DNA of 64,000 nucleotides from NCBI RefSeq assembly GCF_000763295.1, contig NZ_JRJE01000031.1, positions 310,001 to 374,000 of the forward strand. Reading direction: 5' to 3'. This DNA comes from Thalassospira australica (GTDB lineage: Bacteria > Pseudomonadota > Alphaproteobacteria > Rhodospirillales > Thalassospiraceae). The notes under the pieces were generated by a model. It ran no database searches. It had not been told where the DNA came from and saw only the letters and a program-made list of their open reading frames with translations. The translations under genes were made by a program, and so were the position numbers. Below, one piece after another: positions 48,901 to 52,073 of this stretch (position 1 is its first letter; each line of letters begins with the position of its first letter).

Positions 48901-50079
48901 TTATCCGACTGACGGAAATTCTCCGTCAACATATGGGAAAGCTTCGCCGACTGTGACCTGCACATCAGGGTAAAAACCATTAAAGTGCGTCGCCAAGGCA
49001 TTGCTGTATGCGCCTATATGGCCAAACTCGATCCAGTCCCCCTCGCGGATATCCGCAGGCAGCGACACGGTGGCTGGTAACACATCCATGTTGTCACAGG
49101 TCGGGCCATAGATCGTGAATTCAAGGGTTTCTTCCTGGTCGAAATCACCTGTAATGCGCATCGGACGGACCGGATAACGAAGTTGACCGGTCACGGTCTC
49201 CGAAAGGCTGCCATATACACCGTCATTGATGAAAAGCGTATCTTCCTTGCGCAGGTGAATCTGCGTGATCAGCGAAACACCGCTTGAAACCAAAGCCCGG
49301 CCCGGTTCGCACATAAACGTTGTCTCAGGCATATCAAGCCACCGGATACAGTCCTTGATTTCATCCATGAACTCTTCAAGGCTGGCGCCACGCTGGTTCA
49401 TGTACTGCCCCGGGAAGCCGCCCCCTACATCAATATGTTTCACCTGAACGCCAGAAAAATCGACAACCTGACGGATCAATTCGACGGCAATTCGATAACC
49501 GGTCGGTGTTGTACACTGCGATCCAACGTGGAAACAAAGCCCACTGTCATATCCATATTCATCAACCTTCTTAAGCAGTTCAGCGGCGACCATCGGGCGC
49601 GCTCCGAACTTGGCTGACAGGTTATAGGCAGCACCGGCTGGCGGTGTTGCAAGGCGCACATGAATTACCAGGTTCTTGTCGCCTTCAGTTTCCTCACGGA
49701 TTTTTTCAAGTTCTTCTTCCGTATCGATCACATAGTGATCAATGCCAAACACCCGATGCGCGTTGCGAATGGCGTCACGACTTTTGACCGGATGCATGAA
49801 GTACGCCTTCATGCCCGGGAATTGGCGACGTACAAGCGATATTTCCTCAGGTGAGGCTGTATCGAAATGCCGAACGCCCCCTTCATGCAGGTATCGCATG
49901 ACTTCTGGATGCGGGTTGCATTTAACCGCATAAAGAACATCGCCAGGGAACATTTCGACAAAGCGCTGCGCTGTTTCTCGAAGAATATTGGGTCTGAGGC
50001 AATAGACCGGATAGGAAGGTTTGAGTTCCTTAACAACATCGAACGTCGTATCGAAATGACGTGGCACAATATACTCCAT
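48901..50079 (-). CDS. Type III PLP ornithine/lysine decarboxylase
   Basis: Alanine-racemase-fold decarboxylase of 392 residues producing putrescine or cadaverine from ornithine or lysine. The PLP lysine is Lys53 in LYAVKCNPHP; other motifs are FDTASPEEI, FHVGSQC, HIDVGGGFPG, CEPGRALV and the substrate-site GPTCDNMDVL near 325. These are typical of the ornithine (or dual ornithine/lysine) group rather than diaminopimelate decarboxylase. A MITE-like element ends about 57 bases upstream of the ATG and may have altered its promoter. Polyamines would be cytoplasmic. Confidence 0.87.
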   Translation of the reverse strand: MEYIVPRHFDTTFDVVKELKPSYPVYCLRPNILRETAQRFVEMFPGDVLYAVKCNPHPEVMRYLHEGGVRHFDTASPEEISLVRRQFPGMKAYFMHPVKSRDAIRNAHRVFGIDHYVIDTEEELEKIREETEGDKNLVIHVRLATPPAGAAYNLSAKFGARPMVAAELLKKVDEYGYDSGLCFHVGSQCTTPTGYRIAVELIRQVVDFSGVQVKHIDVGGGFPGQYMNQRGASLEEFMDEIKDCIRWLDMPETTFMCEPGRALVSSGVSLITQIHLRKEDTLFINDGVYGSLSETVTGQLRYPVRPMRITGDFDQEETLEFTIYGPTCDNMDVLPATVSLPADIREGDWIEFGHIGAYSNALATHFNGFYPDVQVTVGEAFPYVDGEFPSVG

Positions 50080-50135
50080 CGTTTACGAATATCAGGCGCC
50101 CAGACACGTACCGCCGCCGGGCTGGCCTTTTAGCT

Positions 50136-50398
50136 AGGGTCTAAACTCATTCACATAATCGCTCTGGTCTCCCGGATTTGTGCGGATATGCCGAGCGAAA
50201 TCGTAGAAACATCCACATCTTTCAAGATTGTGCGACAAAATAGCCCGTGCAAATCCGGGGGATCCGAAGGACAACTGATATGACAGAAATCCTCTGCGTC
50301 AAATCCCTTGACCGGGGATTACCCCACTTAGCGGTCTTTTCCTTGCTTTTTCTCCAATATCAGTTGCAAGGGCGGTCATGTGAATGAGTTTAGACCCT
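50136..50398. mobile_element. MITE-like element with 21-bp terminal inverted repeats
   Basis: AGGGTCTAAACTCATTCACAT at 50136-50156 recurs as its exact reverse complement at 50378-50398. TA lies at both outer borders (50135-50136 and 50398-50399) within CTAG and CTAA, a pattern like the YTAR targets of IS5-family elements. The 221-base interior has no transposase, but holds a second inverted repeat (CCCGGATTTG at 50171-50180, CAAATCCGGG at 50250-50259). It lies between the decarboxylase and aldehyde dehydrogenase promoters. The ends are seen directly; the family is inferred. Confidence 0.75.
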
Positions 50399-50585
50399 AA
50401 ATTAGCGTACCAGCCCTTTGACACCCTGTCATGCACCTTGCAAGCATCGTGGTTTGATTGGAACACGAATTGCGCTTGATATTGCTCCCTTCTGCCGATA
50501 ATTTGGTAAACCAATACCGAATAACCAATATCGTGCGCCCCACGCGGTTTACCGCACCTGCACGTCAAACCACAGGGAGCCTGAA

Positions 50586-52073
50586 ATGCCCATCGATCCG
50601 ATCCTTGATCCGACCCTTTTGGCCAAGGAACTGTCTGGCTATCATCTGATTAACGGCAAACTTGTCGCCGCCAAACACGGCAAGACTTTTGATGTTCTCA
50701 ACCCTGCAACGGGCAAGGTGATCGGTCAGGCTGCTGATGGTGATGCCGATGATGTTGCGATTGCCGTCGCCGCCGCCAAAGCAGCCCAAAAGGACTGGGC
50801 AGAACGCCCGGCGCGCGAACGCGGCAAGCTTTTGGCTGAATGCGGTCGCATCCTGATGTCCCACACCGAAGAACTCGGCCGTTTGGTGGCGCTGGAATCG
50901 GGCAAGGCCCTGCGCACCGAAAGCCGGGTCGAGGCATCGGTTCTTGCCGACATGTTCGTCTTCTTTGGCGGGCTCGCCTCCGAGCTCAAGGGTGAAACCG
51001 TACCGTTTAACCCGAACATGATGACTGTAACCACCCGTGAAGCTGTCGGCGTGGTTGGGGCAATCATTCCATGGAACGTGCCGATGATGCTGATGGCGAT
51101 CAAGGTTGCCCCGGCACTGGTTGCGGGCAACGCGGTTGTCGTAAAATCCGCAGAAGACACACCGCTTGCAGTGCTGCGTGTCTGTCAGATCATGCAGGAA
51201 GTTCTTCCGGCTGGTGTCTTTAACATCCTGTCTGGCTTTGGCCCTTCATGTGGCGGCCCTTTGGTCGAACACAAGGATGTCAAGAAAGTCTCCTTCACCG
51301 GTTCGGTTGAAACCGGCCGTACCGTTTATCGCGCGGCTGCTGAAAAACTTATTCCGGTAACCCTGGAGCTTGGCGGCAAATCACCGATGATCGTGATGGG
51401 TGACGCCGACCTCGACAAGGCGATCGCAGGTGCGATTGGCGGCATGCGCTTTACCCGTCAGGGGCAAAGCTGCACGGCAGCGTCACGTATGCTGGTGCAC
51501 GAAAGCCTGCATGACGAATTCGTCAAACGGTTGATTGATAAGGTCAACACCCTCAAAATGGGTGACCCTCTTGACGAGGAAACCGACATCGGCACCATCA
51601 TCAACCGCAAGCAATTCGACAAGGTTTGTGGTTACATCGCAACAGGCGAACAGGAAGGCGCAACCAAAAACGAACTAAGCGCGCTTCCAGATGACCCTGC
51701 ACTTTCAGATGGCACGTTCGTGCGTCCGGTTATCTTTACAGATGTCGATCCCGACGCCCGGATCGCACGTGAAGAGATCTTTGGCCCCGTCGCATGTGTG
51801 TTCAAGTTCAAGACCTTTGAAGAGGCACTTGAACTGGCCAATGACAGCGATTTTGGCTTGGCCGCAACTGTCTGGACAACTGACCTGAAAACCGCACTGG
51901 TCGCGACAAAGCGTCTTGAGGCAGGATTTGTTCAGGTTAACCAGAACCTTGTTGTGCAGCCCAACTTGTCTTATGGCGGGATCAAGCTTTCCGGCCTTGG
52001 CAAGGAAGCATCGCTTGAAAGCATGCTGGAACATTTCACCTACAAGAAAACCGTTATTCTGAATATGGAATAA
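50586..52073 (+). CDS. NAD(P)-dependent aldehyde dehydrogenase
   Basis: Soluble enzyme of 495 residues oxidising an aldehyde to an acid. Cofactor and catalytic motifs are IIPWNVPMMLMAIKVAPALVAG, SFTGSVETGR, the general-base Glu261 in LELGGKSP, the nucleophile Cys296 in RQGQSCTAASR, EEIFGPVACVFKF and NLSYGGIKLSGLG. Substrate is not evident; the neighbouring amine-forming decarboxylase makes aminoaldehydes possible, but that is only suggestive. The promoter region abuts the MITE-like element. A terminator follows. Confidence 0.88.
   Translation: MPIDPILDPTLLAKELSGYHLINGKLVAAKHGKTFDVLNPATGKVIGQAADGDADDVAIAVAAAKAAQKDWAERPARERGKLLAECGRILMSHTEELGRLVALESGKALRTESRVEASVLADMFVFFGGLASELKGETVPFNPNMMTVTTREAVGVVGAIIPWNVPMMLMAIKVAPALVAGNAVVVKSAEDTPLAVLRVCQIMQEVLPAGVFNILSGFGPSCGGPLVEHKDVKKVSFTGSVETGRTVYRAAAEKLIPVTLELGGKSPMIVMGDADLDKAIAGAIGGMRFTRQGQSCTAASRMLVHESLHDEFVKRLIDKVNTLKMGDPLDEETDIGTIINRKQFDKVCGYIATGEQEGATKNELSALPDDPALSDGTFVRPVIFTDVDPDARIAREEIFGPVACVFKFKTFEEALELANDSDFGLAATVWTTDLKTALVATKRLEAGFVQVNQNLVVQPNLSYGGIKLSGLGKEASLESMLEHFTYKKTVILNME

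Follow-up and report, generated by a model that had tools for sequence, protein, structure and literature searches.

A MITE-type insertion upstream of a Thalassospira decarboxylase gene represents an element family with a predicted, covarying structured core

The intergenic region between a PLP-dependent decarboxylase gene and an aldehyde dehydrogenase gene (both assigned by Pfam) of a Thalassospira strain carries a real MITE-type insertion at 50135-50399 of the 64-kb stretch of DNA analysed here (64,000 nt, hereafter the window), which belongs to a 4.26-Mb genome assembled in 31 contigs. We consider it likely that this insertion is one copy of a non-autonomous element family of about 265 nt, in which IS5-type ends enclose a conserved structured core, and that the window copy lengthens the leader of the decarboxylase gene. 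The first-pass annotation of the window had recognized the insertion and missed its conserved covarying interior, the core of which, as judged by covariance models, extends beyond the class.

The insertion and the decarboxylase leader

The element spans 265 nt with TA at both borders, and its plus strand is the strand of the conserved fold. The left (50135-50156) and right (50378-50399) terminal inverted repeats match exactly over 22 nt including the TA, or over 20 nt without it. The first-pass annotation had thus placed the element and its TA borders correctly and was right that the repeats are exact, while its length of 263 bases and its repeat length of 21 bp needed adjustment. An inverted repeat at 50135-50165/50369-50399 (31 nt, 90%) was the longest of the 11 listed in the window with arms of at least 18 nt lying no more than 600 nt apart, and two inverted repeats, at 50163-50185/50245-50267 and 50272-50289/50349-50366, are nested inside the element, where one had been described. 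No ORF of at least 100 aa in the ORF list of the window overlaps the element, in agreement with the lack of coding capacity claimed for it. The decarboxylase gene (PF02784/PF00278) occupies 48901-50079 on the minus strand with its ATG at 50079, so that 55 nt rather than the previously counted 57 separate it from the element; the aldehyde dehydrogenase gene (PF00171) occupies 50586-52073 on the plus strand with its ATG at 50586.

Empty sites in relatives and further copies in the same genome had been named as checks, and both were found. The decarboxylase gene was located in 23 loci of other records, and the orthologous site lacked the element in all 22 alignable relatives (21 under the name Thalassospira, plus a Rhodospirillales MAG that is closely similar), in a set of records from which very near relatives of this genome may be missing; the remaining locus, L028, belongs to a distant MAG whose protein is 54% identical and was excluded from the alignment. 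The 55 bases preceding the element are identical between the window and its closest relatives (L010 and L011), where the site reads TTTTAGC-CCG-ATTAGCG, against TTTTAGC-[TA...TA]-AATTAGCG in the window. As to a possible target-site duplication, TA flanks both sides in 55 of 98 copies, a signal of only 2 bp, and at this point substitutions set the empty site apart from the window. Three further full-length copies of the same subfamily are present in the same genome (87, 82 and 79% identical), together with many divergent or partial copies, and 14 places in this genome match the element at E≤1e-8. At the same threshold, matches occurred in 25 of 29 Thalassospira genomes, this one included, and reached at least 26 per genome. 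Its terminal repeats, its length of 265 nt, its multiple copies and its empty orthologous sites bear out the designation as MITE-like; the sequence is multicopy and variable in site, rather than single copy and fixed at one place across distant relatives.

Since the element lies in a divergent promoter region, it had been suggested that it may supply or break a promoter. All 22 empty relatives carry ATGACA (20) or ATGACT (2), a 17-nt spacer and TAnnnT before the decarboxylase gene. The corresponding predicted promoter of the window, with its -35 (ATGACA) at 50427-50432 and its -10 (TACGCT) at 50404-50409 on the minus strand, is intact and outside the element, whose edge at 50399 comes 4 nt past the -10, indicating that the promoter was neither broken nor, as far as seen, supplied by the insertion. 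The proposed promoter was absent from the output of a consensus promoter scan, so that conservation is its one support, and the same scan gave a weak promoter-like match (9 of 12) inside the element on the minus strand; together with the location of the element, these two points are what speak for a promoter effect. However, the scan gave two matches in all against 0.8 expected, the conserved decarboxylase promoter persists outside the element, and the likely promoter of the aldehyde dehydrogenase gene, TTGATA-17-TAATTT at 50476-50504, starts 77 nt past the element (by eye). We consider a promoter supplied or broken by the element to be very improbable.

The insertion would instead act on the transcript. 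With the element 4 nt downstream of the -10, transcription would start at about the element edge, and the decarboxylase leader would grow from about 55 to about 320 nt, taking in the minus strand of the element and folding strongly on itself. The predicted fold of the lengthened leader is -128.9 kcal/mol (z -6.7), and a terminator scan of the window copy found none.

Two further features of the site were seen by eye. A GGGCTG...CAGCCC inverted repeat stands beside the -10, at 50119-50125 and 50410-50416 in the window, and is kept in 14 of the 22 relatives; it is a possible candidate for a decarboxylase operator, whose halves would have been pulled apart by the insertion. Besides, L022 and L024 have about 14 extra nucleotides at this position (ATTAGGGTCATGACT...), which look like an IS5-type end and are possibly a relic of another insertion or excision.

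A covarying fold in the interior

To describe the interior, we used 104 copies, of which 98 were full length and aligned. A subset of 47 copies, no two of which reached 90% identity, was aligned without structure and then folded. The consensus fold contained 92 pairs, 66 of which showed changes on both sides, compared with 37.4 in shuffled alignments; 95.8% of the cells were paired (81.9% shuffled), and the covariation score was 0.411 (0.156 shuffled). On each of the five measures none of 500 shuffles was as high, and structures slid along the alignment were paired at 47.5% at most. Because the shuffles keep the relatedness of the copies and the structure was drawn from the same alignment, the breadth of the core, described below, matters. 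The window copy folded as RNA at -116.3 kcal/mol (z -9.9), and 0 of 200 shuffles were as good. On this comparative ground, the interior of the element is predicted to be a conserved, covarying multi-helix structure, and it probably carries function.

The fold, read on the plus strand, consists of a terminal helix and two arms. The terminal helix P1 (helix 1 of the consensus) pairs 50136-50167 with 50367-50398 and shows double-sided changes in 27 of its 30 pairs. The P2 arm (50168-50262; helices 2-5) has an outer helix with a conserved U.G/G.U step, a GA/GA internal loop and inner helices. A small linker hairpin, TCCGAAGGA (50263-50271; helix 6), separates P2 from the P3 arm (50272-50366; helices 7-9), the base helix of which shows double-sided changes in 11 of 15 pairs. 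Within P2 lies a 63-nt core at 50183-50245, covered by the covariance model R2; this is the single R2 match in the 64-kb window (63 bits, E 4e-14), and the window copy is one of the 24 training sequences of the model. The shared core reads GGAGCAA..CC-GCAGGAA..TTTCAAGG..TTGCGAC (by eye). GA stands on both sides of the inner P2 helix, an arrangement that we take to resemble a kink-turn. A kissing pairing of GCAGGA in P2 with TCCTGC in P3 was considered and rejected, as the two sides vary without matching (by eye). Rfam release 15 gave one match in the window region, at E 0.37 and 15 bits against a gathering score of 50, and nothing on the core in 17 further copy-bearing loci, where four matches fell elsewhere in the loci.

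Three wobble pairs are nearly fixed in the 47 copies: the U.G of P2 (45/47), the G.U of P2 (40/47) and the G.U of the hairpin (43/47), which together are G.U in 128 of 141 cells. As these steps would be A.C mismatches on the opposite strand, they favour the plus strand as the folded molecule. The consensus folding score was -241 on the plus strand and -221 on the minus strand. Elsewhere in the fold, the counts of G.U versus A.C were 56/33 in P1, 41/21 in P2 and 20/20 in P3, and this mild strand bias of sporadic mismatches would lend weak support to an RNA. The core most likely acts as RNA from the plus strand.

The outer arms were diverse between copies and consistent within them: 65 distinct left terminal arms occurred among the 98 copies, and the arms differed at a mean of 0.93 of 21 positions within a copy versus 6.03 between copies. 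Such self-matching ends agree with an alternative in which the element is an ordinary decayed IS5-type element, internally deleted, whose interior is passive and whose repeats are kept by DNA-level palindrome correction or gene conversion between the arms. Template switching is a known means of palindrome correction. The alternative also accommodates the compensated doubles between orthologous copies (below) and the existence of core-less derivatives. However, correction should erase the wobble steps in the helices, and these persist; the unpaired core motifs recur outside the class (by eye), and the R2 core is absent within the IS of the transposase loci scanned. We regard a passive, decayed IS as an unlikely explanation of the family.

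Orthologous copies gave 28 compensated doubles, 32 single changes keeping G.U and 83 singles breaking a pair, as counted over 18 pairwise comparisons that overlap and are not independent. About four doubles would be expected if the two sides changed independently, as reckoned from the totals, so that the doubles observed are in excess. The excess of pair-breaking singles over compensated doubles indicates that inserted copies mostly decay. This pattern would fit a fold that is important for spread and under weak maintenance once a copy has inserted; DNA-level palindrome correction may also have a part in it.

The decay of inserted copies also bears on whether they are retained as a host-adapted RNA regulator that serves neighbouring genes as leader, attenuator or stability element, a role proposed for other bacterial MITEs. 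Predicted genes lie close to the copies (medians of 34 and 73.5 nt), and in 64 of the 98 Thalassospira copies the gene on the left reads away from the element, figures that come from crude ORF calling on copies that are not independent, 24 of which overlap a predicted long ORF. Several insertions are common to different species, as seen in the 18 comparisons, and a terminator-like hairpin with a T-run is present in P3 of copies with group B ends that were inspected (by eye). A regulator kept by its host is at odds, however, with the predominance of pair-breaking changes in orthologous copies, with the absence of the window copy from all 22 aligned relatives, with the mixed orientation of copies toward their neighbours and with the negative terminator scan of the window copy. 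We hold host adaptation to be improbable. The core most likely serves the spread of the element itself rather than each host gene; the fold, comprising P1, P2 with its GA/GA loop, the linker hairpin and P3, would be maintained in the lineages that spread. Both the action as RNA and selection at the level of spreading lineages are what we infer from these patterns of sequence change.

Termini and IS5-type partners

The Thalassospira copies fall into groups that have a common interior and differing ends: group A with GGGTCYAAACTCATTCAC, to which the window copy belongs, group B with GGCTCAGGACCTATTAATTT and group C with GGGTCTGAACCCAATT. Two sister copies of group A (L187 and L112) have 22 nt in common with an IS end in genome G005, from which the window copy differs at 2 of 19 positions. 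The A-type IS of G005 is present as fragments only, at contig ends, and bare ends lie at contig ends in G013. The C-terminus encoded by the G005 IS scored 105.7 bits with NF033580, just below the cut-off of 110 for what is a partial protein, and matched PF13586 and PF01609 above their cut-offs, placing it in the IS5 family. A group B copy from the genome of the window (L036) has 22 nt in common with a two-frame IS of about 850 bp in G015, and a group C copy (L149) has 18 nt plus further matches in common with an IS of about 833 bp in G025. For the Thalassospira transposases behind the matching ends, the matches were to NF033580 and to Pfam DDE families. The A-type IS of G005 is located at the CTA that forms the extreme end of a C-type element, L109 (by eye).

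An IS with the exact ends of the window copy, which had been proposed as a further check, was not found in its own assembly when NF033580-type transposases were sought, though the 31 contigs may miss copies. The sole NF033580-type IS of this genome, at G000:C23:29365-30098 (L155, L156), has ends unlike those of the window copy. Its transposase consists of two overlapping stretches in different frames, with one degenerate end, near a contig end. No R2 core was found inside an IS in a scan of 20 transposase loci, a set in which several loci cover one and the same IS; two partial R2 matches, in L120 and L285, correspond to the cut-off start of a single element copy adjoining that IS.

Outside Thalassospira, 9 of 13 genomes searched contained an NF033580 match, and the core-bearing genomes G087, G247, G395 and G760, which were among the 13, contained none. 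In G583 and G480, the ends of the IS found differ from the element ends, and G223 and G647 have IS with broadly similar ends. The earlier description of the termini as IS5-type therefore holds within Thalassospira, where the 22-nt matches of the sister and group B copies support it; outside the genus, the proposed IS5 link is thin. Given the matching ends, the natural interpretation within Thalassospira is that IS5-type transposases move the element in trans, and it is what we infer there: the short termini, of about 20 nt with a TA target, would let an IS5-family transposase move the element.

Several shortened elements (L045, L047, L077, L108, L112 and L042) consist of two ends with little or no core or a partial interior. 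Those in which both ends are kept and the core is reduced or missing measure about 57-160 nt, and their existence implies that some movements may do without the core in cis. Positions 11216-11480 of L097, a 17.7-kb IMG/VR viral contig, hold a complete group A copy, and a virus or provirus may therefore carry the element; phage records gave no match to the element, and two stricter core patterns were without matches in viral contigs.

The core beyond the genus and related systems

Copies on two Nitratireductor plasmids have the same core but differ in their arms. Searched at E≤1e-4, the covariance model R1, which describes the P2 domain, matched at least 5 of 385 genomes of the class, namely two Thalassospira and three of other families. 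An alignment of 26 P2 sequences that included the R1 finds, and that was fitted to the model, showed double changes in 31 of 37 pairs, a result reached by 0 of 500 shuffles. The 63-nt core model R2, trained on 24 sequences from Thalassospira, Nitratireductor and the three families found with R1, was then searched at E≤1e-4; in these core model searches 10 or 13 candidates were scored per genome, so that the counts are floors. R2 matched at least 7 of the 385 class genomes, five of which had supplied copies to the training or its relatives, and at least 15 of 398 genomes of the phylum, comprising 4 Thalassospira, 5 other Alphaproteobacteria and 6 from outside the class (G480, G547, G583, G629, G639 and G760). 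None of the 11 phylum genomes outside Thalassospira was in the training set. Most genomes sampled had no R2 match. Going by these model matches, the putative P2 core is also present outside Alphaproteobacteria, and its unpaired motifs GCAGGAA, TTTCAAGG and GCGAC recur there (by eye).

The ends of the distant copies provided an independent check. Of 26 copies examined, 24 lie between 20-nt terminal repeats matching at 17-20 of 20 positions, compared with a best of 14-16 of 20 per locus at 7-12 control positions; the two that fail (L234 and L236, with 14 and 13 of 20) both come from G247. The lengths of these 24 copies were 263-273 nt in 15 cases and 166-210 nt, a short class, in seven, and the other two were measured inside their ends. 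L272 and L273 belong to two genomes of one genus and have the same arms. A relative of the G583 copy is found on a Variovorax plasmid, and relatives of a G647 copy on two Phyllobacterium plasmids. One distant copy (L223, 1470-1644) ends 2 nt before a tRNA gene (1647), and another (L274, 1456-1661) ends about 53 nt before a small SRP RNA gene (1715).

A more far-reaching version of our account is that what endures is the core and not the ends. The core would then be a mobile, structured RNA found in Pseudomonadota, a modular RNA parasite that would swap termini between transposition systems, as the three IS5-type ends in Thalassospira may illustrate, and that would depend on its fold in order to spread, one conceivable way being the binding of a transposase or a host factor. 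We offer this version tentatively, as a possibility that we lean against.

Several known systems resemble the element in part. As described in the portion of PMC2229807 available, RUP of Streptococcus pneumoniae is likewise short and non-coding, with a TA target and IS-like ends proposed for movement in trans; by that description, not by sequence, it differs in its 107 bp, its IS630-type partner and the lack of any other signature of structure or function, whereas the window element has a conserved multi-helix core and belongs to a family with several end types. The Correia/NEMIS elements also have terminal inverted repeats with TA, and their transcripts were proposed to fold and to affect neighbouring mRNAs, but they are set apart by their description in the same part of that source (107/155 bp, Neisseria). 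The CIR elements of Caulobacter and Brucella are, according to it, alphaproteobacterial and intergenic with a two-armed RNA fold and a linker, but measure about 110 bp, have no end pairing and carry GANTC in the loop; we rejected an assignment of the element to CIR on the strength of this description, given its 265 nt and its terminal helix. MITEPye1 of Paracoccus yeei, likewise an alphaproteobacterial MITE, has IS-like ends and is predicted to yield a stable RNA; it differs in its IS1182-type ends and its 1-3 chromosomal copies, and covariation is not mentioned in the sections of PMC11578231 consulted.

A further relationship is with the two-frame, NF033580-type IS of the IS5 family, which share the TA context, measure about 830-860 bp in Thalassospira and have ends matching the element subfamilies. 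They differ from the element in encoding a transposase and in having no core inside those scanned; we take them to be the IS427 group.

We found no description of this element family in the open-access literature, subscription papers and ISfinder lying outside that search. That MITE transcripts can form stable stem-loops and may have regulatory roles is a known idea, and a covarying core common beyond a class under differing ends is not described in the sections consulted of the reviews PMC2229807 and PMC10969869 and of PMC11578231 and PMC2267715.

Bacterial MITEs are usually treated as passive remnants of IS. A covarying core that occurs beyond one class, under ends that differ between copies and yet match each other within a copy, suggests selection on something inside the element. 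The long-standing question whether small bacterial palindromic elements carry a function of their own becomes directly testable, since a single core with its covariance model and many variants from nature are at hand, and the window copy offers a clean case in which an insertion would make a short leader long and structured while leaving the promoter untouched.
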